In this document: one piece after another, positions 3,721 through 33,700 of the stretch | Layout: each line of letters starts with the position of its first letter | How positions within the stretch are numbered: position 1 is the stretch's first letter | NCBI GenBank assembly: GCA_002067965.1 | Contig: MVRN01000127.1 | Location: forward strand, 1-64,000 | Origin: Pelotomaculum sp. PtaU1.Bin035 | GTDB lineage: Bacteria; Bacillota; Desulfotomaculia; Desulfotomaculales; Pelotomaculaceae | Length of the DNA stretch: 64,000 nt | Direction of reading: 5' to 3' | Notes under the pieces: model-generated | Seen by the model: the letters and a program-made list of their open reading frames with translations, nothing else | The model's database searches: none | What the model was told of the DNA's origin: nothing | Made by a program: the position numbers and the translations under genes

Positions 3721-3898
3721 TGAAATACCTCCCTTTGCAGTTTCTTGTTGCCGCGACGGGTCTCTCCGTACCCGGCCGGTGTGGCAACAATCATGATGGT
3801 GTTTAAGCGATAATATAGGTCTCAGGGGGGTGTTAAGAACGCCCGCACACGTAGTTGCATGCGGCCGATCGTCCCGACTGCGGGAGAAGCCTTTGCCC

Positions 3899-4000: not shown

Positions 4001-4149
4001 TCCCCATGGAAACCATTTTCCGGGGGCTGAAGTGTGGGTTTTGCCACCATCAATGGACGAAAGCTTCCACGGAACCTATGATTGGCTCACAGTCCATTAA
4101 TGAGCAAAATCCCTAACCCAGCAAGGCAGTTAGATTGTGCTACTGAATG

Positions 4150-4466: not shown

Positions 4467-6965
4467 TCAGTTCCCGTTTGTCGGTAGGGATTTGTCTTTG
4501 TCTTTTTTCTTCGCCTTCGCGAGCCTCTTGTTCTTCAAGGTGATAGTGGTCCCGTTCTTGCCATGCTGTGATGCGAATGTGATCCCTTTGCTCTTCAGGT
4601 CCGCCTTGATTTCCCTTAGCCGCCTGGAAAGTATATGTGGGGCTTTGGGCCAGTTCTTTGCCCGGATGTCCATTTTTTCACTCAAAGCTATACTTTCCAG
4701 CTGCTCATGAAGCTCGGTTACCATACCCTTCCAGTGCTTTTGTTTTTGCATAAAGGCCATGACGGCGGTGCCGACAGGGTTGGCGTTCAGGCATTCTTCC
4801 GCGGCCTTTTTGATGTTGGCGTTGTAAGCGTCCATAAACTCTTCTGATGTGTGACCAATGGCTTTAGCAACGGCGCAGCCCCATTTGGCGAACTCCGCCA
4901 TCCGGGGCAGTTCCTTCAGCTCCAGCTTCGGGTAGAGCGCCATGGCCTTCGAAAGCGTTTCCAGCATGGCCCCGAATATCTTTGGACGGTCCTTCTCAAA
5001 ATCTTCCCACACCTGGTTTTCTGTTTTCATGTCTTTTGGCTTGATTCGTTTCATTTCAATCAGAATGCTGCGGTCAAGTATGTCGCTCCGATGGACGACC
5101 ACGTTGATGCCGTTTAAGGCAACGACTCTTTTAAAAGAAAGGATTGTCTCGTCGTCGTCGCTGAACAGCGTGCGCTTGGACATGCCGCCGCCAGTCACGG
5201 CTGTACACAGCAAGTCACTTTGTGCCGCGGTTAGGTGATCCAGGTTGTCGTAGGTGGGCATCTGGTTATTGGCCAACTGAAGCGCCAATTCCTGGATGCT
5301 CCTGGGCATCGTGTAGAGGTCCTTTCTTGCCGGGTCCACCAGCGCCCTGATCATCCTGAGCATGGTTGACTTGGCAGCACCCTTTTCACCGTGGACCACC
5401 AGTATCGGTCTCGATATGTCCGGGACCAGGCTGACCACCAGGTAGACCTTGACAATCAGGCGCTGGCCTTTGTTCTTGAGCTTGATGTGCCTAAAAATCA
5501 GGTCCAGTTCATTACCTAACGCGGGTAAGACCTGGGCCTTCTGGTTCTTTGTGCGGTAAAATATCGTTGGTGGTTTTTCTAATACTTTTACGCCTTTCGC
5601 CGTAACCCTAACAGCACGCCAATCCTCATCGGCCAAGTCGTAATAGATTGCACCGCCCAGCCTGGCCAACCGAGTCGACAGCTGCGTTTCCTCGCCGTCG
5701 AATGTGGCTTTGCTCTCGAAGAACCCTATAACCTGGTTAATACTGTCCTTGCAGGGAGTTTTATTCTTTTTTTTGAAAAACTCATAAATTAGCCAGTTTT
5801 TAAACCGCTTGTCCTTGAGCCTGCAGACTTCCTTGTGGCCGTTGACATTAAAAGCCCCGTAAGCTTCGTCTAGCTCGCTCCTGAAGAATGTGGCGTCACC
5901 GGCTATGCTCAATAGCACGTCCGCCTGGGTTTCATCGTCCTTCCCGTCGCTTTTTTCGTTGTATTCCGGCTCGTATTTTTTGCGCAGGGAGTGCCAGTCT
6001 TCCTGTGAGCAGCTATTGTGATGGCATTTGGCGAATATTCCGCCGTTGTCGAATTGAATGATTACGGCGCTGCCGTTGGTGTGCTCTGGGTTCCATGGGC
6101 ACTGCTTGAGAACGTATTTCAGGTTGTTTCCTTTCCAGGTCCCCTTGGTCTTCCACTCGATGCCGTGTTTTACCATCCATGCCTCAAGGTCAAAGGGCTG
6201 GGCCTTGATGTCCACCTTTTTCTTCCTTGGGTTTTCAACCTCCATGCCCATGGCGGCGACTTCTTCAAGCTTTTCTGCGGGGACCTTTTTCAGGCGCTTT
6301 GGGCAACTTACCAACCTGGAGAGCCGGTGTGGGCGGTCGTCTGTCGACTCGCCTTTGCGGTTGTAGGTGCCGAATAACCTCGTGAGCCTGGACGGGTTGT
6401 AGGTGCTGGTGTCGACCTGCGCTTTTTCGTTGGAAAAGCGCAGGTCAAGTGCCTTCAAAATCCTGGCCAACAGGGCAACGCTGGCCTTGTTGTTGGGGAG
6501 ATCAACCCGGTAGAAGATCTGGTAACCGTTGCCGGTGTCGCAAAATATAGGTTCTCCCCAGCCAAGCCCGGACAAAAACTTCATGATTTCAACCGCGAGC
6601 TTTTTTGCGCTCATTTTTTCCGCGTCAGAGGACGAGATCTGCGCCGGCCGAACGGCGTCGATGTCGATCATGAGATAACGGCAAGAGGCAACCTCATCGT
6701 CGCTGGTCGTCTTTTCCGGATAAGCCCGGATCTTGTTCTTGCCCCGCGCCAGGAGGGCCGGCACGACGGGGTTCATCGTAATGTAGATGCCAGAGAATTC
6801 TTTATCATCGACAAACCTTCTCTTTACTGATCTGATCAATTCCTTTCGATTGTCGAAATAACCGCTGGCGTAGGACTTCCCGTTCTTGAACACCCTTACT
6901 TCGACGACATCGCCGGGACGCAAGAAGTGCTTCAGGGCTGCATACCGTTTCTTCTTTTTCGCCAA
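4467..6965 (-). CDS. Primase-helicase replication protein of the element
   Basis: An 832-residue protein that likely starts replication of the excised element. The N-terminal 250 residues look like an archaeo-eukaryotic-type primase (PrimPol): DID at residues 101-103, GNGYQIFYRV, and VDTSTYNPSRLTRLFGTYNRKG. A Cys/His zinc-binding segment follows (about 285-320, CPWNPEH...CHHNSC). The C-terminal half is an SF3/AAA-type helicase with Walker A GEKGAAKST (near 525), Walker B-like MPTYDNLD, sensor VALNGIN and an Arg-finger region RSDILDRSI. The start is TTG at 6965, nine nt after GGGGG. It is 21 nt downstream of the 6987-7349 gene. A basic C-terminal tail ends the protein. Confidence 0.85.
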   Translation of the reverse strand: MAKKKKRYAALKHFLRPGDVVEVRVFKNGKSYASGYFDNRKELIRSVKRRFVDDKEFSGIYITMNPVVPALLARGKNKIRAYPEKTTSDDEVASCRYLMIDIDAVRPAQISSSDAEKMSAKKLAVEIMKFLSGLGWGEPIFCDTGNGYQIFYRVDLPNNKASVALLARILKALDLRFSNEKAQVDTSTYNPSRLTRLFGTYNRKGESTDDRPHRLSRLVSCPKRLKKVPAEKLEEVAAMGMEVENPRKKKVDIKAQPFDLEAWMVKHGIEWKTKGTWKGNNLKYVLKQCPWNPEHTNGSAVIIQFDNGGIFAKCHHNSCSQEDWHSLRKKYEPEYNEKSDGKDDETQADVLLSIAGDATFFRSELDEAYGAFNVNGHKEVCRLKDKRFKNWLIYEFFKKKNKTPCKDSINQVIGFFESKATFDGEETQLSTRLARLGGAIYYDLADEDWRAVRVTAKGVKVLEKPPTIFYRTKNQKAQVLPALGNELDLIFRHIKLKNKGQRLIVKVYLVVSLVPDISRPILVVHGEKGAAKSTMLRMIRALVDPARKDLYTMPRSIQELALQLANNQMPTYDNLDHLTAAQSDLLCTAVTGGGMSKRTLFSDDDETILSFKRVVALNGINVVVHRSDILDRSILIEMKRIKPKDMKTENQVWEDFEKDRPKIFGAMLETLSKAMALYPKLELKELPRMAEFAKWGCAVAKAIGHTSEEFMDAYNANIKKAAEECLNANPVGTAVMAFMQKQKHWKGMVTELHEQLESIALSEKMDIRAKNWPKAPHILSRRLREIKADLKSKGITFASQHGKNGTTITLKNKRLAKAKKKDKDKSLPTNGN

Positions 6966-16124: not shown

Positions 16125-16300
16125 TTTAGATAAAATTTACAAATTACAAACCAAGAAAAGCTAAAGCAATTATTCGTATGAGGTAAATAACACCCGAAAA
16201 TTTAAACCTGTCAATAGCTGACATGATTTATAACGTGCCTCGGTGCTAAAATTAGGCTAGCTAGAGAAAAAAAGGGGAAATCAAAGGAGGAATGTTTTTC

Positions 16301-19300
16301 ATGAAGAGGTGGGCGCTCATCGTAGCGGTGCTGCTCGTCCTCTTTGCCGCTTTGCCGGGGGCGGCGGGCGCGGAGGTGGGGCAGACGGTCAAGCTGTGGG
16401 AGCTCGACACGAGCACTTGGGCGTGGGTCCAGGTGGACGCCCAACTGGCGTCCGAGACCGCGCGTGTCAAGGCGTTCGTCAAAGCAGGTGAGCAGTTCGA
16501 CCAGGCCAAGCTCGACAGGGTCATGCAGGCCTTCGACTCCGCCGCCGTCATGGACAAGGCGATGGAGCTCGGGAGCCCGCCGGACAACGACGGGGACGGC
16601 AAGGTCGCCGTTTTCTTCCACAATCTCGGCGGGACCAGCGGCCTCGTCAGGGACCAGAACTTTACTCCGGGAGACCCGAACAGCAACGGCATGGACATGT
16701 TCGACGTCAACACGCTGTACATCAGGGAGAACAACGGCTACCCCGACACCTACTCCGTCGGGGTCATGGCCCACGAGTTCACCCACGTGATCAACCACCG
16801 CTACGCCCAGATGGTGTTCGGCCCGGTCTCCGAGGGCCTGGCCATGTACAACGAGAACGAGGTCTACCCGGGCTACGGCAGGGTGGCCGACTCCGTCCAG
16901 CAGTATGTCTCGTTCTTCAAGGACACCGCCCTCGACGTCATCCGGTATGGCGAGAACTTCCTGATGATGCGATACATCGAGGACAGGTACGGCGGCAAGC
17001 AGACCGTCAGGGACGTCATGCAGAGCGGCGCGGTTACAATGGACGGCGTGATCGGCGTCCTGAACGGTAAGGGGTACAACGTCACTCTCAAGGACTTCTA
17101 CGAGGACTTCGCGATCTCCGTCATGGCCGACTCCGGGCAGTACGACATACCGTCGTATGACATCATCCACAGCTACGGCGGGGCGATGCCCTTTGAGAAC
17201 GCCCCTTTGAGCTTCCAGGGGGCCGTCAAGGGCCTGACCCCGAAGTGGAAGTACATCAACCCCAACGGGAAGCAGCAGCTCAGGCTGGCCCTGACGGCCG
17301 ACCAGACGATGGACGCCGCTGTTGTCAGGGCCGACATGACCTTCGGCGTTGCCAACGTCCCGGCCTCGATGAGCAACGTTTCGGTCCAAAAGATCCAGAT
17401 CGGGTCGACACCCACCAGCGTCGACCTGAGCAACCTGGGGGCCAACACCTACGTCTTCATGACCCCGCTCTACGCCCCGAGCCCGAGCGGTGGGACGGCG
17501 ACGCACGACATGCAGGCCAACTGGACGCTAGACGTCAGCGACCCGGGCGTTCCCCAGTCGATAGCCCTGAGCGCCAGCCCGGCCTCCATGAGCCTCCAGG
17601 CGGGGCAGACCGGGCAAGTGACCCCCACCGTGAACCCGGCGGACGCCGTCGTGTCCTACTCCTCCAGCGACACCTCCGTGGCGACCGTGAGCCAGGCCGG
17701 CCTCGTGACGGCGGTGTCGGCCGGTAGCGCGACCATAACGGTGAACGCCACCAAGGCGGGCTTCACGGCGGCCAGCGCCACGGTGTCAGTGTCGGTGACC
17801 GATCCTACCCCGCAGGCCATAGCCCTCTCCGTGTCCCCGGCCTCCGCGTCCCTGCAGGTAGGACAGACGAGGCAGATCACGGCGACCGTCAACCCGGCCG
17901 ACGCGGCGGTGGCGTACTCCTCAAGCGATAGCACAGTAGCGACCGTTAGTCAGGCCGGCTTGGTCACCGCCATGGCCTCCGGGAGCGCGACCATAACGGT
18001 CAACGCCAGCAAGGCGGGGTACACTGCGGCCAGCTCCACCGTCCAGGTCAGCGTGGCGACCCCATCGATCGTGATCACCTCGGCCCAGCAGAGCATTTCG
18101 ATCAAGACCGGGGAGACCGCGCAGATATCGCTCACTGTGGCCCCGGCGGATGCTGCGGTGACCTACTCGTCCAATAATACATCCGTGGCGACGGTTAGCC
18201 AGACGGGCTTGGTGACAGCGGTGGGCGTCGGGAGCGCGACGGTGACCGCCAACGCCAGCAAGGCGGGGTACAACAGCGCGTCCAAGGACTTCCCCGTGGC
18301 GGTCTCCGCCAAAGACATAAGCCTGGGCGTAACCCCGGCCTCCATGAACCTCCAGACCGGTCAGTCGGGGCAAATCGCGGTGACGGTGAGCCCGGGCGAC
18401 GCGACGTTGTCTTACTCCTCGGACAACACCTCCGTGGCCACCGTCAGCCAGGGCGGCCTGGTGAGCGCCGTGTCCGCCGGGAGCGCAACCATAACGGTGA
18501 ACGCCGGCAAGGCGGGCTACAATAGCGCTTCGAAATCCGTTATCATAAACGTGTCTTCACCCGGTGGTGGGGGCGGCGGCGGTGGAGGCGGAGGCGGCGG
18601 AACCCCCTCCACTACCCTCAGCGTCTCCCCTTCCTCGGTGTCGATGCAAGTCGGGGAGACCAAACAGCTGACCGCCTCGGCGAGCCCTGCGGACGTGGAC
18701 GTGACGTACTCCAGCAGCAACCCGTCGGTGGCGACGGTGAGCGCGGGCGGCCTGGTGACTGCGGCCTCAGCCGGGAGCGCGACCATAACGGTGAACGCCA
18801 GCAAGCAGGGATACAACCCTTCCACGGCAACGGTCCCCGTGAGCGTCGCCCCGGCCGCGATCAACCCGCCGCCCCAAAACCTGTTGCTCACGACCGACCC
18901 GACGAAGATCAACATGACCATGGCCGTCATAAACGGCTACCAGCACCTCCCCCAGAACCCGGTCTCCAAGACCACGGCGAACTTCTGGCTCAAGGTGACG
19001 TTCGGTGGACCCGTCGACCACTCCAAGGTCAAGAACGACACGTTCGTGCTCCACAGCGTCTCGGGCGACAGGCCGCTGGCGCTCTACGTGGCCGAGGACA
19101 AGGGGGACCCGAGGGTGTTCACGATCTACACGGTCCACCCGATCCAGGCGGGGGACTACTACCTCGTGATCGACAAGGGCATAGGGCTGTCCCAGACCTG
19201 GAAGTGCAAGGTGGTCGTCAGCCAGCAGGCAGCAGCCGCCAGGGCGCTCCGCAGCCTCGCCGGGACAACGGCGGCAAGGTCCTTCCCGGACATCTCCCTC

Positions 19301-19336
19301 GGTGCCATCCCCACCAGCGGGGGTGGGGGGAGGTGA
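16301..19336 (+). CDS. Secreted zinc metallopeptidase-like protein with five BIG2 domains
   Basis: A 1011-residue surface protein. ATG 16301 follows AGGAGG by 10 nt; an earlier ATG at 16292 is too close to that site. A signal peptide (KRWALIVAVLLVLFAALPGAAGA) is followed by a zinc-peptidase domain with MAHEFTHVINH (HExxH at His158-Glu159-His162) and SEGLAMYNENE, similar to M30/M6-type proteases. From about residue 420 there are five bacterial Ig-like (BIG2) repeats, each with 'YSSxxxSVATVSxxGLVTA.xxGSATITVNA'. A run of 13 glycines separates repeats 4 and 5. A C-terminal domain of about 140 residues follows. The gene is very GC-rich. It probably acts on, or adheres to, extracellular proteins; protease substrates are unknown. 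Confidence 0.85.
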   Translation: MKRWALIVAVLLVLFAALPGAAGAEVGQTVKLWELDTSTWAWVQVDAQLASETARVKAFVKAGEQFDQAKLDRVMQAFDSAAVMDKAMELGSPPDNDGDGKVAVFFHNLGGTSGLVRDQNFTPGDPNSNGMDMFDVNTLYIRENNGYPDTYSVGVMAHEFTHVINHRYAQMVFGPVSEGLAMYNENEVYPGYGRVADSVQQYVSFFKDTALDVIRYGENFLMMRYIEDRYGGKQTVRDVMQSGAVTMDGVIGVLNGKGYNVTLKDFYEDFAISVMADSGQYDIPSYDIIHSYGGAMPFENAPLSFQGAVKGLTPKWKYINPNGKQQLRLALTADQTMDAAVVRADMTFGVANVPASMSNVSVQKIQIGSTPTSVDLSNLGANTYVFMTPLYAPSPSGGTATHDMQANWTLDVSDPGVPQSIALSASPASMSLQAGQTGQVTPTVNPADAVVSYSSSDTSVATVSQAGLVTAVSAGSATITVNATKAGFTAASATVSVSVTDPTPQAIALSVSPASASLQVGQTRQITATVNPADAAVAYSSSDSTVATVSQAGLVTAMASGSATITVNASKAGYTAASSTVQVSVATPSIVITSAQQSISIKTGETAQISLTVAPADAAVTYSSNNTSVATVSQTGLVTAVGVGSATVTANASKAGYNSASKDFPVAVSAKDISLGVTPASMNLQTGQSGQIAVTVSPGDATLSYSSDNTSVATVSQGGLVSAVSAGSATITVNAGKAGYNSASKSVIINVSSPGGGGGGGGGGGGGTPSTTLSVSPSSVSMQVGETKQLTASASPADVDVTYSSSNPSVATVSAGGLVTAASAGSATITVNASKQGYNPSTATVPVSVAPAAINPPPQNLLLTTDPTKINMTMAVINGYQHLPQNPVSKTTANFWLKVTFGGPVDHSKVKNDTFVLHSVSGDRPLALYVAEDKGDPRVFTIYTVHPIQAGDYYLVIDKGIGLSQTWKCKVVVSQQAAAARALRSLAGTTAARSFPDISLGAIPTSGGGGR

Positions 19337-19419
19337 AGAAGCTCTCTTAGTGTTTGCAAACTTTTTTTGGGGGGTGACAACCGTCACCTTCACTTCCGCG
19401 ACGGCGACCAACGGTGCCC

Positions 19420-19503
19420 GTCAAGCAGCCAACCGTAGCGTCACAGCGTCATCCCAGATTGACGCTGTGACGCTGGTGACGCTGCTCCCGGTGTCCTGGC
19501 GGG
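19420..19503. repeat. Palindromic repeat, copy 7
   Basis: GTCAAGCAGCCAACCGTAGC leads into GCGTCACAGCGTCATCC, then GATTGACGCTGTGACGCTGG, TGACGCTGCTCCCGGTGTCC and TGGCGGG. It is the last copy before the AT-rich cargo; none occurs further right in the window. Confidence 0.85.
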
Positions 19504-19687
19504 ACCTGTGTCACTCGACTGAGCCGGGCTGTCTCATCATGTATAGGTTTGAGCCGCATGGAGAGCGTCCTTGTTTCGCCATACGTTTTCCTTGACATTT
19601 CTGGATAATCCCATGGGGGATGCGTGCTAATTTGGTGCGGAGAAGAAAAGATGCTTGTCGAAGTATGTAGAAAAATGTAGGTAGATC

Positions 19688-19731
19688 CTTCCAAGGGAAA
19701 AGAAGGAAAAACAAAAACTCCGTCGAATAAA
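19688..19731 (+). repeat. 45-nt motif shared with 16080-16124, copy B
   Basis: TTCCAAGGGAAAAGAAGG, AAAACAAAAACTC and GTCGAATAA. It lies about 180 nt upstream of the GIY-YIG gene at 19909. Confidence 0.55.
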
Positions 19732-19908
19732 AGCAGTCAAGGCAAACCTATAAATGATGTATTAAAATAAGTTAAAAAAATTGCCTTGATGGGACAGAAA
19801 TCCGATACTTTTAACGCGTCAAGAATGACATTTTTTTTCTTTGTGACTGGAAGAGGGTGGTGCCAGAATTGAGATATTGATATAAAAATAACGCTAGGGG
19901 GGGGAATT

Positions 19909-20226
19909 TTGGCAAATCTAAAGCCGGGTCGAATGAGACAAAGCAATGAAGTTAAGGGAAAAGATTGTCAAATACCTTCTGAACCGGGGATTTACCGACA
20001 CATTGATAGAGAAAATGGTGATATAGGTTATGTAGGCCAAAGTAAGAACCTTCGCGCTCGGCAACAACAGCACGTTCGAGAAGGCAAGCTAAACCTTGAG
20101 AAACAATATGTATCTTATTCCGTAAATTCTGAACTAAATAAAACAGACTTGCAAAGAATTGAAAAAGAACATATTGCTCGGCATAACCCTCAAGGCAATA
20201 CTTATCGAGGTGGAAACGGGAGGTAA
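19909..20226 (+). CDS. GIY-YIG domain protein
   Basis: A 105-residue protein, nearly all one GIY-YIG nuclease-fold domain. The defining parts are present: PGIYRHI (GIY), GYVGQSKNLRARQQQH (YIG-like YVG with the conserved Arg), RIEKEHIARHNP (catalytic Glu, Asn). TTG start with a G-rich ribosome site. No DNA-binding accessory domain is attached. It opens the AT-rich right-end cargo, 74 nt before the first TerB-like gene, and may be the nuclease effector of, or a neighbour to, the TerB-LRAT modules. Nuclease activity is expected from the motifs but substrate is unknown. Confidence 0.75.
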   Translation: MANLKPGRMRQSNEVKGKDCQIPSEPGIYRHIDRENGDIGYVGQSKNLRARQQQHVREGKLNLEKQYVSYSVNSELNKTDLQRIEKEHIARHNPQGNTYRGGNGR

Positions 20227-20300
20227 CTTCATAATAAAAGTCGTGCGTGTTGTGTCCCCAAAATAACATACTTAATATTTTGCAATGGGAGGAAGATAAT

Positions 20301-20705
20301 TTGTTTGCTAATATGTTATTGAAGGAAGAGAAGGAAAGTCTCTTAAAATTATTATTATATTTATCAATGATTGATGGAAAACTTACCAAGGAAGAAATTG
20401 ATTTTATTAATAGCATAGCATCCGAAATTGGGTTGAGCTCGCAAAATATTTCTGATAATATTGACGATCTGGAAATAGACGGAATACTATCAGAAATAAA
20501 GAGCGATTCCTCGAAGAAAATTTTATTAATAGAATTAGTGAACATTGCAGTGTCCGATGGTGAATATTCGGATACAGAAAAAAGAGGATTAGAAATTATT
20601 TGTAACAAGCTAGGTATTAGTAGCGAAATACTAAATCGAATTGAGAAGTGGGTAAGTGAAGGTAAAGCATGGATGAAAAATGGGTTAAACTTGATCGGCG
20701 AATAA
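20301..20705 (+). CDS. TerB-like protein, module 1
   Basis: A 134-residue helical protein of the TerB superfamily (name from tellurite resistance; function is not necessarily that). The TTG start at 20301 follows GGGAGG by 8 nt. Two Asp-Gly motifs typical of TerB metal sites are seen: LSMIDGKLTKEE (Asp25) and AVSDGEYSDTE (near residue 86). It ends with a helical 'RIEKWVSEGKAWMKNG', which recurs in the 21823-22266 protein. It is 19 nt upstream of the first LRAT-like gene, so the two are probably co-translated and may interact. TerB proteins often sit in conflict or stress systems as membrane-associated sensors. Confidence 0.7.
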   Translation: MFANMLLKEEKESLLKLLLYLSMIDGKLTKEEIDFINSIASEIGLSSQNISDNIDDLEIDGILSEIKSDSSKKILLIELVNIAVSDGEYSDTEKRGLEIICNKLGISSEILNRIEKWVSEGKAWMKNGLNLIGE

Positions 20706-20724
20706 AAGACTTGGAGGGATTAAA

Positions 20725-21600
20725 ATGTCCAAAGGGGATCATCTGTATGTCGATAGAGGGCTATACACCCATCATGGTATAGATGATGGGGAAGGGAACG
20801 TTATTCAGTATTCTGGTTTGCAGGATGGGTTTGAAAGCGGCCCTATAAACGTTGTACCTTTACATGAGTTTACAAGCGGTTCTGAATTGAAGATTAAAAA
20901 ATATGCTGATGCAGAAAGAAAATATTCTAGGGATGAAATAGTCGCGAGGGCAAGAAGCCGTGTTGGTGAAGATGGATATTCGGTTTGGGGTAATAACTGT
21001 GAACATTTTGCAGAATGGTGTGTAACTGGAAACCATGAGAGTAAACAAGTCGAAAAGGCTGTTGCAGGAGGGGCAGTTGTTAGTGGTGTTGGGACAGGCG
21101 TTGGTGCTGTTGCAGTTGTTTCCTCTGCTGGAGCTGTGGCAGGATTGTCAGGTTCGGGTATAATGTCAGGGCTGGCTGCCGTTGGGGGGGCTGTCGGTGG
21201 TGGTGCTGTAGCTGGAGCAGCGGCTTTAGCCGGAAGTGCAGGAGCAGGCGTAGCTACAATATTAAATAACACAGTTTTTAAAGATGATCAAAACTTAGAT
21301 CAGGATGAGAGGGATGCAAGAAATGTAGGACGCAAGGCTTCTGTTGTAGGTGCCGGTGCAGCAACAGCAGGAGGAATTGCAGCTATCGCTGCGAGTGGTA
21401 CCGCTGGTTTATCAGCTGCCGGAATTACGAGTGGCTTAGCTGCTATAGGAGCTACTACTGGGGCGGCAACCGGGATCGCGGCGGTTACAGGAGCCAGTGC
21501 TATGGCAATTGGAACTGCTACTGTTGTTGCTGCCCCTGCTGTTGCTGCGGTTGCAGTTGGAATGGGGATATACAAAGCTTTTAAATGGTTAAGACGTTAA
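20725..21600 (+). CDS. LRAT/NlpC-P60-type protein with C-terminal Ala/Gly membrane region, module 1
   Basis: A 291-residue protein. The first 105 residues are an LRAT-like (circularly permuted papain-like) domain: GDHLYVDRGLYTHHGIDDG with His16/His17, VIQYSG with Gln28 where the family has His, and NNCEHFAEWC with the catalytic Cys92. Such enzymes transfer or cleave acyl chains on lipids or peptides. From residue 110 two very Ala/Gly-rich hydrophobic blocks (about 112-175 and 205-285) flank a charged middle (DDQNLDQDERDARNVGRK). These may be glycine-zipper-like membrane hairpins. ATG preceded by GGAGG. Probably membrane-anchored, partnered with the upstream TerB-like protein. Confidence 0.75.
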   Translation: MSKGDHLYVDRGLYTHHGIDDGEGNVIQYSGLQDGFESGPINVVPLHEFTSGSELKIKKYADAERKYSRDEIVARARSRVGEDGYSVWGNNCEHFAEWCVTGNHESKQVEKAVAGGAVVSGVGTGVGAVAVVSSAGAVAGLSGSGIMSGLAAVGGAVGGGAVAGAAALAGSAGAGVATILNNTVFKDDQNLDQDERDARNVGRKASVVGAGAATAGGIAAIAASGTAGLSAAGITSGLAAIGATTGAATGIAAVTGASAMAIGTATVVAAPAVAAVAVGMGIYKAFKWLRR

Positions 21601-21822
21601 TTCCATTGCAAAAAGTCAATTTTTGCTCTATATTTCCTTTTAAATCTAGAAAAAACTAAACGGAGCATTTGGATTATTTTACACCTTATACAAGTAGGCA
21701 GCATGGCATAAAGATTAACTTCGTGTGGTTATAACCTACAACACAAATGCCGCCGAACAGTCGCCGTAACATTATAGATTAGATAAAACGAATCTTTTTT
21801 TTGGAAAGGTGCTGTTGGTTTA
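21601..21822. other. Gap between modules 1 and 2
   Basis: AT-rich spacer with the 20-nt motif at 21751-21770. A small promoter may lie here, but none is clear enough to report. Confidence 0.4.
21751..21770 (+). repeat. 20-nt motif copy 1 (CGCCGAACAGTCGCCGTAAC)
   Basis: Matches 23104-23123 with one mismatch, and 25420-25439 more distantly. Copies 1 and 2 flank the second TerB-LRAT module. Confidence 0.6.
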
Positions 21823-22266
21823 ATGATAAATATTTTAGAAATACTAGACAGTGAAAGAGCCAGAATTAATTTTATTAAAGGACTCATTTACCTTTCTAAG
21901 GCAACAGAAAAAAAAGAAGGTTTGGGCGGAATCGATGAAAGTGAATTAGTTTTTTTAAGAAATTCCATGAGAGCCTTGTGTTTAGAGCAAGAAATTCAAA
22001 ATAAACTTGAAGAATTTATTATGCTTAAGGAAATTAGAATTGATCTGTCCTTTGATTCCAAAAAGCAAACTTTATTTTTCTTCAGGGAAGCTATACAGCT
22101 TTGTTATATTGATGGTATGTACCAACAAGCTGAAAAAGATATGGTATTAGAAATGGCGAAAATGCTAGGAGTAGAGCTAAATATTATTGATAAGATTGAA
22201 AAGTGGGTTTTGGAAGGCATCGAATGGTTACAACGTGGAGATAAGTTACTAGAATTGGAGGGCTAG
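21823..22266 (+). CDS. TerB-like protein, module 2
   Basis: A 147-residue relative of the 20301-20705 protein. The first Asp-Gly site is replaced by an insertion (KATEKKEGLGGIDESE), while the second is kept (LCYIDGMYQQAEKD, near residue 107). The C-terminal helix IEKWVLEGIEWLQRG matches that of module 1. ATG start with GGAAAGGTG upstream. It is 3 nt from the following LRAT-like gene, indicating tight coupling. Role as a sensor or scaffold for the partner is inference. Confidence 0.65.
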   Translation: MINILEILDSERARINFIKGLIYLSKATEKKEGLGGIDESELVFLRNSMRALCLEQEIQNKLEEFIMLKEIRIDLSFDSKKQTLFFFREAIQLCYIDGMYQQAEKDMVLEMAKMLGVELNIIDKIEKWVLEGIEWLQRGDKLLELEG

Positions 22267-22269
22267 AGG

Positions 22270-23043
22270 ATGGGCTTTTGGAAGTTTGTTGCATGTGTTG
22301 CCGGTGGTGCAGCCGCAATTGCTGCTGCCCCTTTGATTCTACCGGCAGCAGCAGCGGTAGGAGCAGTAGCAGCAACTGCGGGAACAGCGGCAGTTGCTGC
22401 AGGAACAGCAGTGGTAGGGACAGCAGCCGCCGCAGCGGGAACAACTACAACTGCTGCAGTTGTGGCTGGAGCAGCCGCCGCGGCGAAGGCGAATTTGAGT
22501 TCTAAAGCACAGCCACGAAAAACGCATGCCGAATATGGAGATGTTATAGGTGTAAAGCGATATTACAAAAAATTACTACCTTTTTATCACTATGCAATTT
22601 ACGTAAACGATATAAGTGTTATTCATTACACATCACTAAACTCAGATGTTAGTGGTGAAAACAAAATCATGGAAACAGATATGAAACACTTTTTGCGAGG
22701 TGAAAAATCTTATTTTGTTATCAAATTTGGAAAAACATCTAATGATAGAACAGTGTATAATGTGAATGCTGGCGCATGCGTGTCAAGTTTTAATCTGCAT
22801 AAGAAATTGTTGGACTCACTTCATGAACTAAAATATAATCTTTATTCACCTTCAGAAACAGTGCAAAGAGCTAGAAATAGATTGGGTGAGGCCGATTATG
22901 ACTTATTTGGTAATAATTGTGAACACTTTGCAATTTGGTGTAAGACAGGAATGCATCGATCTTATCAGGTTGAACGTAGGCCTATTGATAGTAAACTTGA
23001 TGAGTTTATAAATATTTTGGAGAGGGTTAATATATATACATAG
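22270..23043 (+). CDS. LRAT-type protein with N-terminal Ala-rich membrane region, module 2
   Basis: A 257-residue protein with the domain order of module 1 reversed: residues 1-75 are an Ala/Val/Gly/Thr-rich hydrophobic stretch, then the LRAT-like domain (about 85-230). The full catalytic set is seen: His107 (FYHYAIYV), His119 (SVIHYTS) and Cys217 (NNCEHFAIWC). The segment after the Cys (KTGMHRSYQVE) matches the module 1 protein (VTGNHESKQVE). ATG preceded by GAGGG overlapping the stop region of the TerB-like gene. Probably membrane-bound, acting on lipids or acylated peptides; LRAT-like acyltransferase versus peptidase cannot be told from the sequence. Confidence 0.75.
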   Translation: MGFWKFVACVAGGAAAIAAAPLILPAAAAVGAVAATAGTAAVAAGTAVVGTAAAAAGTTTTAAVVAGAAAAAKANLSSKAQPRKTHAEYGDVIGVKRYYKKLLPFYHYAIYVNDISVIHYTSLNSDVSGENKIMETDMKHFLRGEKSYFVIKFGKTSNDRTVYNVNAGACVSSFNLHKKLLDSLHELKYNLYSPSETVQRARNRLGEADYDLFGNNCEHFAIWCKTGMHRSYQVERRPIDSKLDEFINILERVNIYT

Positions 23044-23247
23044 TTTTTATTCTAGTGGCTTACGTGGATAAACCTTCTTGATTAGGTAGCTATGTAAATA
23101 AATCGCCAAACAGTCGCCGTAACGTCAGAAAGTAGACGCAAAAAGCTGTAGATAGTTGCAAAGCGAGGACGGCAAGGTTTGCTAAAGACCGATGATGATG
23201 AACAACACTAGTAAACATCCGAAATCACACAAAATGTGCTCCGCAAA
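23044..23247. other. Right-end arm of the element before attR
   Basis: About 200 bp with the 20-nt motif (23104-23123) 125-145 nt from the attachment copy. The same layout recurs at 25411-25600, so the two segments are homologous. Likely integrase arm-binding sequence. No gene seen. Confidence 0.5.
23104..23123 (+). repeat. 20-nt motif copy 2 (CGCCAAACAGTCGCCGTAAC)
   Basis: One mismatch to copy 1 at 21751. It lies 144 nt before the right attachment copy. Confidence 0.6.
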
Positions 23248-23309
23248 ACTCGAAATCGAGTAAACCGTGATGAGCGGTTTCTAGGGTTCGAATCCCTATC
23301 TCTCCGCCA
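23248..23309 (+). repeat. Right attachment site: 3' part of a tRNA-Ser
   Basis: Matches 753-814 from the anticodon loop to GCCA, with differences at the positions equal to 784, 787 and 803. Two of these (T instead of C, and A instead of G) pair with each other in the T stem, so the stem is kept. The 5' part of the tRNA is absent. It marks the right end of the element. Confidence 0.9.
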
Positions 23310-23321
23310 ATTTAATAATAT

Positions 23322-23357
23322 CAAGGGGTTTCGTGATCGAACGCGAAGCCCCTTTTT
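23322..23357 (+). terminator. Terminator after the right tRNA copy, likely the original tRNA-Ser terminator
   Basis: AAGGGGTTTCG pairs with CGCGAAGCCCCTT around GTGATCGAA, followed by TTTTTG. In the uninterrupted chromosome this would directly follow tRNA-Ser. Confidence 0.8.
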
Positions 23358-23581
23358 GATCGACTACTTGGGAAAGAAGTTTTTCCTAACATTTTTCTAA
23401 CATCAATTTCATTGAAAGACACTATAAGATAATGCCCTTATTTAAAGAAGATTGTCTCGAACCAGTCTAAGAGAAAAAGAGGTCTGCTGGAAAATATTTG
23501 GGGGCTAATCGGGATTTTATCACGATCCAATATTTATTAAATCTTTGAAATGCGTATTAACAATAGTCTCACTGACATTAA

Positions 23582-24157
23582 TTATATTTGTTGTATATTT
23601 TGCGATTTCATATATTCTAAACCTTCTTTGAACACATTCCCCACAGCCTGACCTAAATCAAAGTAACTGGTGCCCATCATAATCATCGGATTGATTTTTA
23701 GTGGGTCAGGCTTGTCGTCTGTCAAGCATTGCTTATTTAGGTATGTAGAAACTATCTCCCCAAAGAACACTTCAAAGCCGCAAATAGGAACGTTTTGAAT
23801 GATCTTACAGAGAAAATTCAACGGGCATTCGCTAATCATGGGAGCTTTTTCAAGTTCATCGTAAAACGGAGTAAACACAACTGACTTGTCTGTTATTTTT
23901 CCCGATATTATACCGCAATAATCTGTTATTTGAACCATATCTGCCGAGGGTACATTGATACTAAAATATCCATTTTCCTTAACCCCAATAGTTGTATAAT
24001 GAGTGCTTTTTAATGAGATGTAAAACACTGGTTCCAGGCACACCACACCAAACGCCCCAACGGTGGCATAATTAGGCTTGCCATTTACATCGGCTCCGAC
24101 AAGAACAGTTGGAGCAGGACTCACCATAGGATAATTTTTGATTTTTACTTTTTCCAC
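23582..24157 (-). CDS. Flavin reductase-like FMN-binding protein
   Basis: A 191-residue protein of the flavin reductase / FMN-binding split-barrel family: YPMVSPAPTVLVGADVNGKPNYATVGAFGVVCLEPVFYISL at the start, then YTTIGVKENGYFSINVPS. Related clostridial proteins reduce flavins or bind FMN in electron transfer. The GTG at 24157 with GGGAGG 7 nt upstream is the best start; the frame can extend to 24172 through the ribosome site. The preceding small reading frame overlaps its start (ATGTGG), suggesting coupling. It is the first host-like gene right of the element. Confidence 0.8.
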   Translation of the reverse strand: MEKVKIKNYPMVSPAPTVLVGADVNGKPNYATVGAFGVVCLEPVFYISLKSTHYTTIGVKENGYFSINVPSADMVQITDYCGIISGKITDKSVVFTPFYDELEKAPMISECPLNFLCKIIQNVPICGFEVFFGEIVSTYLNKQCLTDDKPDPLKINPMIMMGTSYFDLGQAVGNVFKEGLEYMKSQNIQQI

Positions 24158-24327
24158 ATAAAAACCTCCCAAATTTTATTTTGCTTGGAAACCAGCATTT
24201 CAATATATTCATAAATAAAGTGGAAATAGCCATTTAGGAACGTCTTGTCATAATCGTTAGGCAGACGCGGCTTGAAGTTATCCGGAATTACCAGTTTCCT
24301 TGAGTGTGTCAGTTTCGGCTTTCTCAT
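24145..24327 (-). CDS. Small hypothetical protein overlapping the flavin reductase start
   Basis: A 60-residue frame (MRKPKLTHSRKLVIPDN...) with GAGGAA upstream of the ATG at 24327. Its stop lies just inside the following gene, so the two overlap by 13 nt. Rich in aromatic residues at its C terminus (YFHFIYEYIEML). It may be real, or the end of a broken gene. No family recognised. Confidence 0.4.
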   Translation of the reverse strand: MRKPKLTHSRKLVIPDNFKPRLPNDYDKTFLNGYFHFIYEYIEMLVSKQNKIWEVFMWKK

Positions 24328-24382
24328 ACTCTGATCGTTTCCTCAGCATCTTATCATATTTCGGGCAGAAATGGCATGCCTT

Positions 24383-24417
24383 AGAATGAATTCATGTGCA
24401 TAGCACAAATTCATTCT
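24383..24417. repeat. Inverted repeat before the IS21 remnant
   Basis: AGAATGAATT and AATTCATTCT flank CATGTGCATAGCAC. It may be an operator, or part of the insertion sequence end. Confidence 0.4.
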
Positions 24418-24431
24418 GAGGAGGTTATCTC

Positions 24432-24733
24432 ATGACGCCATACCGGGAGATCCTGAGGCTTCAAAGCAGGGATTCAGCCGCGGAGCATTGCGGCAAGCTG
24501 CAACTGCTCCAGAAACACCGTGGCAAAGACCATTGAGAAAACCAATGAGCATAACCTCACTGTCCCTTTGCCAAAAGAATTTACGTTTCTTAATACTCGC
24601 CGGCCGGATAGCGGGCGCAGATCGGCGAGGGGGCCGTTGTCGAGGCCATGCTGGACAGGATAATCCATAATTCCCATACAAGTACTTGCTGCTGAATGAC
24701 CGGCTCACTCGGGACGAAATATGCAAAAAATGA
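24432..24733 (+). pseudogene. IS21-family transposase remnant (IstA start joined to IstB-like end)
   Basis: MTPYREILRLQS is a typical IstA N terminus. After a frame change the reading continues with QPRSIAASCNCSRNTVAK, the IstA helix-turn-helix. From about 24640 the text resembles an IstB end (EAMLDRIIHNS, then after another frame change LLLNDRLTRDEICKK). The rest of istA and most of istB are missing, so the copy is dead. Confidence 0.6.
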
Positions 24734-24797: not shown

Positions 24798-25073
24798 ATG
24801 CCAATAATTCGTCCCGTTTCCGATTTGCGGAACAAAACCCCAGAGATTGAGGAGATTTGCATAAAAGAGCAGAAGCCGGTTTTTATCACCAAGAACGGCA
24901 ACGGCCATTTAGTCATTATGAGCCAACAGCTTTTTGAACAACAGCAAGCCCTATTAGACCTTTATGATAAGCTGGACGAGGCCGAAGAACAAAGCCGCGC
25001 CGGAAAAAGCCGCCCGTTCCGTGATGTTATGGCAAGCTTAAGGAGCCGTGTCCATGCCAAAACATCTGATTAG
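24798..25073 (+). CDS. Phd/YefM-type antitoxin
   Basis: A 91-residue protein starting MPIIRPVSDLRNKTPEIEEICIKEQKPVFITKNGNGHLVIMSQQLFEQ, the classic Phd/YefM layout of DNA-binding N domain. The C-terminal part (LDEAEEQSRAGKSRPFRDVMASLR) would wrap the toxin. GGGAGG precedes the ATG. AT-rich direct repeats (TATGATAT twice, about 24758-24782) just upstream are the probable autoregulatory site. Its end overlaps the toxin gene by 20 nt. Functional as far as can be seen. Confidence 0.85.
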   Translation: MPIIRPVSDLRNKTPEIEEICIKEQKPVFITKNGNGHLVIMSQQLFEQQQALLDLYDKLDEAEEQSRAGKSRPFRDVMASLRSRVHAKTSD

Positions 25074-25335
25074 TATCACTGAGGCAGCAGAGCAGGATCT
25101 GGCAGATAACCCTGCCGCCGCACTTAAACTGGCTGAAAATATCGAGCAGAGCATTTTACAGCTTGAAAACTTCCCACTGATCGGTACGATACCCAAAAAT
25201 CGAAGACTAAACCGGCAAGGATATCGTATTCTGATAGTCGATAGTTACTTGATGTTCTACGTTCTGCTGGACAACGAGACAGTGGAAATCCGGCGCATTA
25301 TTAGCGGAAAAAGAGACTATAAGTTTTTGCTTTAG
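25054..25335 (+). CDS. RelE/ParE-family toxin
   Basis: A 93-residue ParE/RelE-fold toxin: ITEAAEQDLADNPAAALKLAENIEQSILQLENFP (two helices), then IPKNRRLNRQGYRILIVDSYLMFYVLLDNETVEIRRIISGKRDY, which has the usual 'R.l....yRilivd.Y.i.Y.......v.I.ri..g.rdy' form. The ATG at 25054 is 8 nt from AGGAG; a GTG at 25048 is too close. RelE types cleave ribosome-bound mRNA and ParE types poison gyrase; this sequence cannot decide which. Confidence 0.85.
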   Translation: MPKHLISITEAAEQDLADNPAAALKLAENIEQSILQLENFPLIGTIPKNRRLNRQGYRILIVDSYLMFYVLLDNETVEIRRIISGKRDYKFLL

Positions 25336-27656: not shown

Positions 27657-27780
27657 TCTAAAAGATTGAGCAAAATTGATAATTGCCATGCTAAAGGGGA
27701 ATATTTAATTGTGTTCAAATTCCGCAACAGCTTATGGTAATGATTCCCATGTCACACTTCTGATTTTCTTCAGGGGGACT

Positions 27781-30700
27781 ATGATTCTAAATACTGAACA
27801 ACTTCGACAAAAAGCTCATGAACTTGCACTGACACACGACCCTTATGTGAGACGCGGGCCATCAAAGCGCCTGTGGCGGGAGTTTTATGCGGACGTCGAG
27901 AAATTACGCGCGTTTATCCGCTACCTGCGGGACGGCTATGCAAGCTGTTCGCAACCAGCGGAAGAATGGCTGCTCGATCATGCTGAGTTCGTCGAAGAAC
28001 AGGTATTGGTCATCCGCCACCAGCTTTCCGAAGTTATTTTGCGGGATTTGCCGCGCCTGCGCAAGACCGGCAAGACTAGGGTACTGTCCATCTGCGCTGA
28101 TTACCTCGAGCATGTGGACGGAAACCTTGACGAGGATTCGCTCGTTTCATACATTAATTTTTACCAGGAAGTGTCGGTATTGACCATTGCCGAGGCTTGG
28201 GCGGTCCCGGTTATCCTGCGCATTGCCTTGATCGGGCGCCTGGCCGAAGTCATGGAACTGGTCCGCGAACGGCGGGAGGTGTGTGCGTTAGCCGAACGGT
28301 TGCTTGCACGGATAGAGCCATCGAAGTTAAGTCCGGAGGTTCTGAAGGCCGCCCTGGAAGAAGCGGGGCAAGATATGCCGCTCTCCGGGCCGCTGATCGT
28401 CCACTTGGTCAGGCACCTGCGCGAGTGGTCCGACGACTCGGCAACCGTGCGTGAATGGCTGATGTGCAAGCTGGAAAACGGCTCTGACTGCCTTGATCGA
28501 ATCGTCTCATACGAGTATCAAATGCAGGCTGCCTATCAAGTAACCACAGGCAACCTCATCGGGAGTCTGCGCAAAATTTCTCGCTGGGACTGGCACGATC
28601 CCTTCGAGCAAATTTCTATGGTTGAGCACAATCTCCGCGAAGAAAGATCAGGCATCTACCCGCTTCTTGATTTTTCAAGCCGCGACGCGTTGCGAAAGCG
28701 TGTTGAACAATTGGCCCGCCGCTTGCGCCTGCCGGAAAATCTGGTTGCGAAGCAAGCCGTCGAGCTTGCGGCTAAGGAATACGAGCAGGCTTGCGGGAGG
28801 CGGGCACTGGCGGAAAAGGCCGCCGGCAATTCAAAGGAAAGTGGACGCACCTCCCCCGGAGGAATGTCCCCGAAGCATGAATGTCCCCAACGTATAATGT
28901 CCCCAGTTGAGGAACTGCCGCGCGAAGCATTTGCCGCATACTACCTGCTTGAGCCGGACGGCGTCAAAGAGTTGCGGCACGCGCTGAAAATGTGCGGCAC
29001 TCCCCGGTATTTGCCGGAATTGGGGATTTTGCGTCGCGCAACCGCAATGTATTTTACCATCCTGACGGGATTGTTTACGGCCATCCTTCTCGGGTTCACT
29101 GTTTGGATTGGAGGCGGCGCGAACTTAACGGCCGCCCAGTGGCCGGTGATTCTGATCGCGCTGACGCTTCCCGCAAGCCAGTGGGCAGTCACGGCGGCAC
29201 ACTGGCTTATAGAGTGCGCTATGCGGCCACGGCTGCTGTTGAGATACGATTTCTCGCGCGGGATCCCGGATGAAGCGGCCACTATGGTCGTGATTCCCGT
29301 AATCTGGCCGACAGTCAAAGATGTGCTGGAATTGGCGGACCGTCTGGAAATGCATTACTTGGCCAACCGCGATTCGAATATCCACTTCGCTCTCCTGGGT
29401 GACTTTGTTGACGCCGGCGCGGAGAGGCTGCCGGAGGATAATGCCGTCATTGCAGCCGCGCGGGCAAGCATTGAGGGGTTAAATTGTTCGTACTCCCACC
29501 CGGGCGGGAGTACATTTCACCTTTTTCAGCGCCGCAGGTTGTGGAACCCGTCAGAGGGCGCGTGGATGGGTTGGGAGCGCAAGCGGGGAAAATTAGTGGA
29601 ATTTGTAGAACTGCTAAAAGGGCGGACAGATACGACTTACGACTGCGTTGTTGGGGACGCGTCTATCCTGCCGCGCATCCGTTACATCATCACCCTTGAC
29701 GCGGATACGCAGCTGCCGGTGGGAAGCGCCCAGCGGATGATCGGCACTATGCATCTCCCTTACAACCGGCCGCGCTTAAACAGTATGCGGACACGGGTCG
29801 TTGAGGGATATGGCGTATTGCAGCCGCGTATCGGTATTAGCCACGAGGCTGCTTTGCGCTCGCGATTTGCTTATTTATGGTCGGCGAATCCGGGAATCGA
29901 CCCGTATGCCTTTGCCGCTTCCGATCCGTACCAGGATGGGTTGGGACAGGGTATTTTTACGGGAAAAGGGATATTTGATGTCGACGCGTTTGCGAAAGTT
30001 TTGTGTGAACGTATTCCAGAAAACCGGGTGCTCAGTCACGACTTGTTGGAAGGTGGATTTTTACGCGCCGGCCTGCTGTCGGACATCGAATTAATCGATG
30101 AGCACCCGTCTACGTTCAGTGCTTATCAGAAGAGAATGCACCGTTGGGTGCGTGGCGATTGGCAATTGCTCATTTGGTTGTTTCACCGTGTCCGCGACCG
30201 GTGGGGAAAGTTTTTGCCGGTTGATCTATCCCCCCTCACTCGCTGGCAGGTGATCGACAATCTGCGCCGCAGTTTGCTGCCGCCGGCGCTTTTTGCGGTG
30301 CTGTTGTTAGGCTTTTCCGTCTTACCAGGCTCTCCCGGGCGCTGGCTTGCTTTTGTATTCGCTACATTATCTTTGCCGTTGATTTGCCAATTGGCGGCGA
30401 TTGGGAGGACGATTTGGCGGCCACAGGGCTTGCTGGCTACAGCCGGCCAAATACTGGTAACCGTTGTGACACTTCCGTTTCAAAGCGTGCTGTTGTTTGA
30501 CGCGATAACTAGGACCCTGTATCGCTTGTTCGTATCAAAACGTCATTTGCTGGAATGGGTCAGCGCCGCGGAAATTGAACGCCGCAGCCATGGCGGGCGC
30601 CAACCGGCACTGCCTGGTATGTATGGAGGTTATGCGCTGTTGTTTCTCTTTGCGCCGGCAGCGGTGGCCAGTACCGTTCCGGCGCTGCGGTGGGCAGGAT

Positions 30701-33700
30701 TGGCGCTTTGCGCTGTTTGGGCTTTTGCGCCGCTTGCTATCCGCTGGCTGGACCGGCCCCTGCGGCGGCCCGAGCGCCCGCTTGCGGCGGCTGAGGAGGC
30801 GGAATTGCGAAAGTTGTCGGAACAGATTTGGATGTTTTTTGAGGATTATGTTACTGAGGCGGAGCATTGGCTGCCGCCTGATAACGTTCAAATCGACCCG
30901 CCTATCGGGGTAGTCCACCGTACTTCGCCCACCAACACCGGGCTTTATCTCGCCTGCGCGCTGGCGGCGCGGGATTTCGGGTTCATCGATACACCCGGGT
31001 TGATCGAGCGTTTGGAACGCACGGTCAGTACAATTGAGCAAATGGATAAATGGAAAGGCCATCTTTATAACTGGTATGACACAGTCACTCTCAAACCATT
31101 ACCCCCGCAGTACGTGTCAACGGTGGATTCCGGCAATTTTATCGGCTGTTTAATTACAGTTAAAGAGGGGCTGGCGGAGTGGCTCAATTCGATTATCGGC
31201 GGGGATGTACAGCCAGGTTCTGACCGGGTTCGCGGTAAGGCGGCGGAAGCCTTGAATGTCGCCTTTGCCGGGGAGTTGACGCCTGCCCTGAAAGATGAAG
31301 ACGCAGGCAAACGCAAAAAATCGTCCAGTAGTCTCCGGGAAGATTGGGTGGTACGCGGGCAAAACCTGATTGCCCGTTTAGATACGCTGATAAACGGGAC
31401 GGATTTTCGCCCGCTTTACGACCATAAAGCCAAATTATTCAACCTGGGCTACCACTCCGGGCTGCGTAAACCTGATCAGATCCTGTATGACCTGTTGGCG
31501 TCAGAGGCAAGGCAGACAAGCTTTATTGCCATCGCCCTCGGTCATGTGCCGGTGTCGCACTGGCATGCGCTGGGGCGGACAATGGCCAAGGTAGGGCGGC
31601 GGGTAACGCTGCTCTCGTGGTCCGGGACCATGTTTGAATTTTTAATGCCTTTGCTTTTTATGCGCACCTACCGGAGCACCATCTGGGACAGCACCTGCCG
31701 TGCGGTGGTCAAGCGGCAAATCGAGTATGCGCACCGGCGGGGAGTACCGTTCGGCATCTCCGAATCCGGCTACTACGCCTTTGATTATCAAATGAACTAT
31801 CAATACAGGGCGTTTGGTGTTCCCGGTCTCGGATTCAAGCGCGGCCTGGAACAAGATTTAGTCGTGGCGCCCTACGCGGCGATCCTTGCCTTACCCTTCG
31901 CCAAGCGTCAAGGGCTGGAGGATTTATGTAAAATGAAGGAGTTGGGCGCCTGTGGAAAATACGGCTTCTACGAAGCCATAGATTTCACGTCCGAGCGGCT
32001 GCCGAAGGATAAGAAAAACATGATCATCCGAAGTTATATGGCCCATCACCAGGGGATGAGTCTGCTTGCCCTGGCCAACTTGCTGGCGCCGAAAAAAATA
32101 TACGAGCGCTTTCATCGTGACAAGCGTGTGCGGTCAACGGAACTGCTTTTACAAGAGCGAATTCCCGCGCGGCCTAAAATCATAAAACATTCCGCCATGG
32201 CACGTGCGCGTGTGCCTGATATCAGGCTGGCGGAGACTGGCGCCCGGCGCGAATACCTCAGCGCGGACACGCCTGTACCCGAGGTTTGCGTCCTTTCCAA
32301 CGGGACCTTTATGACCATAGTAACCAACAGCGGCAGCGGGCTAATCCGGTATGAAGGGCTGGCTGTCTCGCGCTGGCGGGAGGATCCGGTGCTGGACGAT
32401 TGGGGGATCTACATATATATCCGTGACGTTGCCCGCGATATGATATGGTCTCCGGCGTTTCAGCCTTGCCGTGTGCCGTCTTCTGAGCAGCGGGTGCAAT
32501 TTTCCCTTGACCGGGCCACCTTTATGCGTGTTGACGGGGATATGCGGACGAGTTTGGAAATCTGCGTGTCTCCGGAATGGAATGCGGAAGTCCGCAGGCT
32601 GACGCTTACTAACACGGGGAATGAAGCACGGATCATCGAGGTCACAACGTTTCTTGAACTGGCCCTGGCGCCTCCCATGGCCGACGACGCGCACCCGGCT
32701 TTCAGCAAATTGTTCATTAAAACGGAATATGCGGAGGATGCCCGGTGCCTGCTGGCCTGGCGCAGGCCTCGCCAGGAAGATGAGAAGCCGTTATGGGTGG
32801 CGCATGCGCTAATAGCCGGGTGCCAGGCCATAGGGCCGGTGGAATACGAGTCCGACCGGGCCTGTTTTATCGGCCGGGGCCATACGGTCTCCCAGCCGCA
32901 AGGAATCCGTTCCCGCCTGCGCGGAACGGTGGGCTCCGTGACTGACCCCGCCATGATCATGCGGAAGCGGTTAAGCATCAAGTCCGGTGAGCAGGCGCAG
33001 TTGTTCGCTGTTACTGCCGTGGCGGGTACGAAAGAAGAGGTGCTCGACATAGTCAGCCGTTTTCCGGGGGGGCTGATGGTGGAGCGAACATTTCAACTGG
33101 CCTGGAACCGCAGTCAAATCGAGCTCCGGCATCTGCGCCTTACTGCCGCCCGGGCGATGACTTTCCAGGCTTTTGCGGGCCGGGTGCTGTATACTCCGCC
33201 GCTGCGGCAGGAGCGGCAGCAAAGTATCGCTGTGAATGTAAAAGGACAGTCCGGCCTCTGGACATACGGAGTTTCCGGAGACGTGCCGGTGATCCTGGTA
33301 CGGATCGAGAACAGGGCTGATATTCAGTTTATCGTTAAGCTGTTGGCCGGACACGAGTATTTGCGCTGCCTGGGATTGATTTTCGACTTGGTTGTTCTGA
33401 ATGAATCGGCGGGAGGATATCAGCAGGATCTGAGTGAAGCGCTGCGGCGGGCGGTGGAACAAGTCGTCCACCGGAAAGGTGCGGAGCCGGGCGGCGTTTT
33501 TATTATAAATGCCAGTCAATTGCCGGTTTCGGACAGGACGCTGCTGCTCGCCGCGGCCCGTGTTGTATTGCGGGCAGGCGGTCCCAGCCTCAAGGCGCAA
33601 ACCAAACCGCCCCGGCGGGATGCCGTCTTGCCGGCGCCCTTCAAGCCGGCGGCGTCGTTAAACAGGTTCACCTCGCTTGTGCCTGACGACATGCGCGAGT

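Follow-up and report, generated by a model that had tools for sequence, protein, structure and literature searches.

Two adjacent gene pairs, each encoding a TerB-like protein followed by a protein with an LRAT domain, lie at the end of a mobile island in Pelotomaculum sp. PtaU1.Bin035. They were studied in the first 64,000 nucleotides (nt) of contig MVRN01000127.1 (assembly GCA_002067965.1, forward strand), the whole of which is referred to hereafter as the window. The first pair, TerB1 and LRAT1, occupies 20301–21600 and the second, TerB2 and LRAT2, occupies 21823–23043. As a preliminary description of this DNA had stated, all four genes point rightward, with 19 nt between TerB1 and LRAT1 and 3 nt between TerB2 and LRAT2; the genes are intact. 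The 2.54-Mb genome contains exactly two LRAT genes and exactly two small TerB genes, and all are found in these pairs. Since the only two LRAT genes are matched one to one with the only two small TerB genes, the pairing in the window is beyond chance.

The island is bounded by 63-nt direct repeats that are 95% identical and that both represent the 3' end of tRNA-Ser. The left copy (attL, 753–815) belongs to a tRNA-Ser(CGA) gene at 721-814 and the right copy (attR, 23248–23310) forms the right end of the island. The gene for a tyrosine-recombinase integrase (2551–4053, minus strand; NCBIfam XerA/XerD/integrase matches with E 8e-19 to 2e-14) is at the left end and both TerB–LRAT pairs are at the right end. 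The att repeats enclose the pairs, and the earlier view of them as element cargo, located at the end opposite the integrase, held. The GC content of the TerB1 and TerB2 genes is 31–32%, compared to 53% for the island.

TerB1 (20301–20705, plus strand) is a protein of 134 amino acids (aa). TTG at 20301 is the best start for this gene, based on a GGGAGG ribosome-binding site and agreement with the start of the Vibrio homologue. TerB1 matched PF05099 with 42.2 bits (E=1.2e-10), above the cut-off of 24.4. The 147-aa TerB2 (21823–22266, plus strand) is divergent and scored only 14.5 bits (E=0.045), which is under the Pfam cut-off. The top PDB match of its AlphaFold2 model (pLDDT 88.5) was the solved TerB structure 2ou3 (Foldseek probability 1.00, TM 0.62, E 0.12), and the all-helical TerB fold of TerB2 was confirmed at the level of the predicted structure. 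The C-terminal helix said to be common to the two modules was recovered as a part that is 35% identical over 62 aa (E=2e-10) and contains the motif IEKWV..G..W...G. No TerB with a C-terminus of this type was found in the plasmids and viral contigs searched.

LRAT1 (20725–21600, plus strand) has an N-terminal LRAT domain with His16, Gln28 and Cys92 and a C-terminal membrane module of the BnzA type (about residues 110-291). The arrangement is reversed in LRAT2 (22270–23043, plus strand), where an Ala-rich hydrophobic segment (residues 1-68) precedes an LRAT domain with His107, His119 and Cys217. Both domains matched PF04970 far above the curated cut-off of 24.3 bits (83.9 bits, E=1.4e-23 for LRAT1; 81 bits, E=1.1e-22 for LRAT2). 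The catalytic Cys lies in an NCEHF motif and is accompanied by the general-base His in each protein (His16/Cys92 in LRAT1, His107/Cys217 in LRAT2), with His119 as the third triad residue in LRAT2. NNCEHFA, previously noted as common to the two modules, was found in both, and the BLAST alignment between them was limited to a 45-aa stretch (62%) that includes the catalytic Cys. His16, Cys92 and the surrounding residues are invariant among relatives of LRAT1. A profile search of the PDB gave a match to PLAAT2 (2.5e-13). The N-terminal domain of the LRAT1 AlphaFold2 model was confident, and its top solved matches in Foldseek were PLAAT4, HRASLS2 (PLAAT2) and PLAAT3 (probability 1.00, TMt 0.71–0.83). 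In the model, then, a PLAAT-like fold is confirmed for LRAT1, and with it the papain-like fold anticipated earlier.

The Ala/Gly-rich hydrophobic stretches that had been described are present in both LRAT proteins. Hydropathy placed them at opposite ends of the two proteins, after the LRAT domain in LRAT1 and before it in LRAT2. For this reason a simple tandem duplication was rejected for module 2; LRAT2 also resembles LRAT proteins of the Bacillota type.

Conservation of the C-terminal half of LRAT1 extends to single residues (GIMSGLA, D..ER.R..GR, GITSGLA), and this half aligned with residues ~289-376 of the 544-residue BnzA from the anti-phage system Bunzi (E=2.5e-5). The PADLOC hidden Markov model for BnzA matched 7 of 11 LRAT1-family members (best 6.8e-9). 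With a second model, made from three complete BnzA proteins found in this analysis, 8 of the 11 C-terminal halves scored between 8.7 and 28.3 bits (16.4 for the window protein), while the maximum among 5,500 shuffled sequences was 2.2 bits. When a model of the module was run over all open reading frames (ORFs) of ~285 loci (E<=1e-3), the only matches were BnzA, stand-alone modules and LRAT1-family members. The shuffles and this specificity led us to reject the idea that the match is an artefact of Gly/Ala composition. Judged from these alignments, the C-terminal membrane module of LRAT1 is homologous to part of BnzA. A relationship of the membrane repeats to the interferon-inducible ISG12 type was not supported, as no such Pfam match was obtained.

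Stand-alone forms of the module were found in several settings. One of 161 aa adjoins BnzB (1.7e-57) at locus L223. Another, of 82 aa, is directly upstream of a dynamin-family protein in E. coli cq9 (L287:4920-7451), inside a conjugative element with traU and traN upstream. A 106-aa module lies beside hsdR in a further E. coli locus (L288) and a 194-aa module is carried on a Calothrix plasmid (L289). A Bacillota locus (L242:293-1950), which may be a compact variant of Bunzi, encodes a fusion protein that joins a TerB domain (PF05099, 25.8 bits, above the cut-off) to a membrane segment similar to PDC-M09A; the gene immediately downstream encodes a BnzB relative (1.6e-39). Bunzi and Shango are both listed as TerB-containing systems (PMC10952713). 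The fusion, the separate-gene pairs and the listing of Bunzi together indicate a link between TerB and such membrane modules, in fused as well as in split form.

To see where else LRAT and TerB occur together, loci from scans with an LRAT alignment (80 kept from bacterial genomes and 28 from viral contigs) were searched for TerB over all ORFs. TerB was found at 3 of the 108 loci, from Shewanella (L039), Vibrio (L040) and Hydrogenovibrio (L080). Small TerB proteins of the pair type are rare, with ~8 in 299 Bacillota genomes beyond those of the window, and three beside LRAT is therefore far above a rough expectation of <0.01. The Shewanella and Vibrio proteins are the two top-scoring relatives of LRAT1, and in each case TerB (E 2e-18 and 4e-19, respectively) lies directly 3' of LRAT. 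In Vibrio salilacus the LRAT and TerB genes are the only genes between two attC sites (~3104–3221 and ~4493–4613), so that they form one integron cassette. In Shewanella an attC-like end directly precedes the LRAT start; a TIR gene similar to ThsB lies upstream (PDC-S66 3.6e-104, ThsB 1.6e-50), and TerB, DUF5677 and an AbiJ-like gene (5e-8) follow downstream. In the Hydrogenovibrio locus TerB is accompanied by PDC-M09A (2.7e-25) and by a fusion of LRAT with a membrane protein of the PDC-M09B type (1.1e-11). Locus L074 has another such fusion, likewise with M09A, on a contig that starts just before M09A. LRAT is thus joined to two different membrane proteins, of the BnzA type in LRAT1 and of the PDC-M09B type in these two loci. 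In a tree of 23 full-length LRAT1-type proteins, the window protein grouped with those of Shewanella, Vibrio and a fourth locus, L043 (support 100/99). TerB adjoins LRAT in three of the four members of this clade; L043 has no TerB and lies beside a PLD-helicase gene.

The expectation that pairs would recur was borne out by the Shewanella locus, which is rich in defence genes, and by the Vibrio cassette, and failed as a general statement. Among neighbours of the wider LRAT1 family, tallied across loci, there were strong matches to Hma and DISARM-type helicases, which from the sequence data appear to belong to locus L045. A NACHT gene was seen near the LRAT gene of a Nostoc plasmid (L031). A gene for a small GIY-YIG-like protein (19909–20226, plus strand; PF01541 E=2.6e-4, slightly under the cut-off) ends 74 nt before the start of TerB1, and its position just before the pairs was correctly described. 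No GIY-YIG gene was present beside the paired homologues in Shewanella, Vibrio or Hydrogenovibrio, and for this reason it is probably not part of the unit.

Module 1 combines, in one operon, a TerB protein and a membrane module homologous to a segment of BnzA, and in this respect it resembles Bunzi. In contrast to Bunzi, only that segment of BnzA is matched, an LRAT domain takes the place of the rest of BnzA and TerB is a separate gene. Nor was there a match to BnzB in the loci covering 19225-24456. With two defining features of Bunzi, full BnzA and BnzB, missing, the pair is distinct from that system, though built on a related plan of TerB plus membrane module. The PADLOC candidate PDC-M09 is similar in that a small TerB accompanies its relatives at four loci (L080, L281, L282 and L283) and that two loci (L080 and L074) have LRAT fused to an M09B-type protein. 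It differs in that M09A and M09B were unmatched in the window pairs, whose LRAT proteins have other membrane segments. Small TerB genes also adjoin two-gene sets of the PDC-M09 or PDC-M40 type at five loci (L279, L280, L281, L282 and L283), and some of the large partners contain HNH-like motifs. This suggests that TerB is a general third component of such sets. Shango (TerB, ATPase and helicase) shares with the window a small TerB in a mobile defence operon (PMC10250203), but no ATPase or helicase ORF was found in the window between 19336 and 23600. Dionysus (van den Berg et al. 2025 preprint) is cited in PMC12926258 as a TerB-encoding anti-phage system and may overlap with the pairs.

The LRAT domain itself had no match among the PADLOC families, and none of the papers searched linked LRAT with TerB or with phage defence. 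To that extent the pairs fit the suggestion of an undescribed system, although their plan of TerB plus membrane module was already known from Bunzi. The closest counterparts of the enzymes are the PLAAT/HRASLS proteins and permuted NlpC/P60 effectors such as Tox-Act1, which share the fold and the catalytic Cys and His with the window LRAT proteins; PLAATs also have a membrane segment (PMC9338259, PMC12994826). The window proteins differ in being bacterial, in their larger Gly/Ala-rich membrane module, in having a TerB partner and in that no secretion context was seen. Tox-Act1, a permuted NlpC/P60 enzyme of the LRAT group, cleaves phosphatidylglycerol and phosphatidylethanolamine in E. coli (PMC12994826). 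For PLAATs, destruction of the organelle membranes to which they are recruited depends on retention of their membrane segment (PMC9338259).

The PLAAT-type fold, lipid cleavage by Tox-Act1 and the need of PLAATs for their membrane segment lead us to favour a phospholipase/acyltransferase that is tethered to the membrane and gated by TerB, and action of the pairs at the membrane is plausible. We propose that the two genes of each pair form an immunity module of this kind, a reading to which we assign a probability of about 0.5; it draws further on the recurrent pairing with TerB, the membrane module in common with BnzA, the L242 fusion, the mobile setting and the defence genes near relatives. 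The LRAT protein would be a thiol phospholipase/acyltransferase like the PLAATs, anchored in the inner membrane and facing the cytosol. TerB would be its regulator in the cytosol, with the membrane module or the enzyme as target, and would either hold the enzyme off or couple it to a signal of phage infection or membrane stress. Once triggered, the enzyme might deacylate membrane phospholipids or transfer their acyl groups; the resulting lysolipids could disrupt the membrane and stop the infected cell before phage release (abortive infection). A broader idea, which we hold only tentatively, is that the pairs represent a class of TerB-regulated, membrane-anchored phospholipase immunity, in which a portable membrane module is combined with LRAT and TerB, with BnzB, with dynamin or with the BnzA core. 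In that case the module would serve all of these systems for membrane targeting or sensing, and LRAT would be an anti-phage effector domain not reported before.

Several observations weigh against this proposal. Most LRAT loci (105 of the 108 scanned) have no TerB neighbour, and the 19 other Bacillota genomes that have LRAT all lack TerB beside it. LRAT is present in 73 of 297 Vibrionaceae and 53 of 296 genomes of the Shewanella order, yet in loci fetched from these genomes TerB was found only at the places of L039 and L040. Full-length LRAT1 homologues of cyanobacteria such as Nostoc adjoin apparent housekeeping genes, a setting that the preliminary description had named as contrary to its view. 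The order of the genes is not constant, TerB being first in the window and second in Vibrio and Shewanella. In LRAT1, the third triad His of its relatives is replaced by Gln28, and the C-terminal membrane half of its model was of low confidence. Canonical BnzA showed no clear TerB domain in profile-profile comparison; what speaks for one is a weak match to DUF533, the listing of Bunzi among TerB-containing systems and the fusion at L242. LRAT–TerB pairing as a general rule was accordingly rejected for the Bacillota, Vibrionaceae and Shewanella order; the absence from the 19 Bacillota genomes, the few Vibrio and Shewanella pairs and the cyanobacterial loci restrict it to particular branches of LRAT.

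Cassette arrays often carry toxin-antitoxin pairs, and the two-gene operons with gaps of 3-19 nt, the two-gene integron cassette and the two copies at the island end would all suit an addiction pair, with LRAT as a constitutive membrane toxin and TerB as the antitoxin that keeps the island in the cell. Permuted NlpC/P60 enzymes can indeed be toxic (PMC12994826). Cyanobacteria and actinobacteria, however, have full-length LRAT1 homologues without TerB, which is unexpected of a lethal toxin, and the membrane module is common to phage-defence proteins and not to known toxin-antitoxin families, so we regard this explanation as unlikely. We give no more credence to a role in membrane stress or lipid remodelling of the host or element, such as acyl transfer or repair, in which TerB would act as a stress sensor. 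TerB is known from metal-stress operons, and the conserved, housekeeping-like loci of the cyanobacterial homologues are what this role would lead one to expect, as is the work of LRAT-group enzymes in lipid metabolism (PMC12994826). But the settings of the TerB-paired branch are a mobile island, an integron cassette and the vicinity of defence genes, and LRAT of any kind is spread patchily in the Bacillota (28 of 398 genomes).

The replacement of the third triad His by Gln28, together with the fact that relatives in the NlpC/P60 group are peptidases, raises the question of whether the LRAT domain is a protease or amidase with a phage or host protein as its target, or a catalytically dead binding domain. 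PLAATs, which act on lipids, are the best matches in both structure and sequence, Cys92 and His16 are invariant with their surroundings and LRAT2 keeps all of His107, His119 and Cys217, which makes this quite improbable. Islands do carry unrelated genes and most LRAT genes lack TerB, as would be the case if the genes were chance neighbours in miscellaneous cargo. Two independent-looking pairs at one locus, made up of the only such genes in the genome, the recurrence of the pairing in Shewanella, Vibrio and Hydrogenovibrio and a cassette that holds both genes render that explanation very hard to credit.

TerB domains occur in several phage-defence systems. Here TerB stands beside an enzyme whose chemistry is understood from the human PLAATs, and whether it gates a membrane lipase is directly testable. 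If the proposed immunity module is real, the LRAT/PLAAT fold joins the enzymes used for bacterial immunity. Related membrane parts connect Bunzi, PDC-M09 and the dynamin operon.

Other features of the island and its surroundings were recorded. Module 2 is flanked by a 20-nt repeat, CGCCRAACAGTCGCCGTAAC (21751-21770 and 23104-23123, plus strand), of which the genome holds these two copies and no third; the repeats bear no likeness to attC and were rejected as attC ends. Palindromic repeats of 39-84 nt based on GTGACGCTGGTGACG lie between island genes at 1385, 1624, 1688, 3897, 3963, 9039, 9081, 11575 and 19420, and the exact 16-mer of these GTGACGCTGGTGACG repeats is confined to the island. A RadC-family protein and a regulator similar to ArgR are among the other island genes, and 16292-19336 encodes a secreted protein of 1,014 aa that has five Ig-like repeats (Big-type) and a HEFTH region like that of metalloproteases. 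Just past the right end of the island there is a toxin-antitoxin pair with Phd/YefM- and RelE/ParE-like proteins (24798-25335), and further downstream a protein of 2,827 aa resembles NdvB/cyclic-glucan-synthase (27709-36192).

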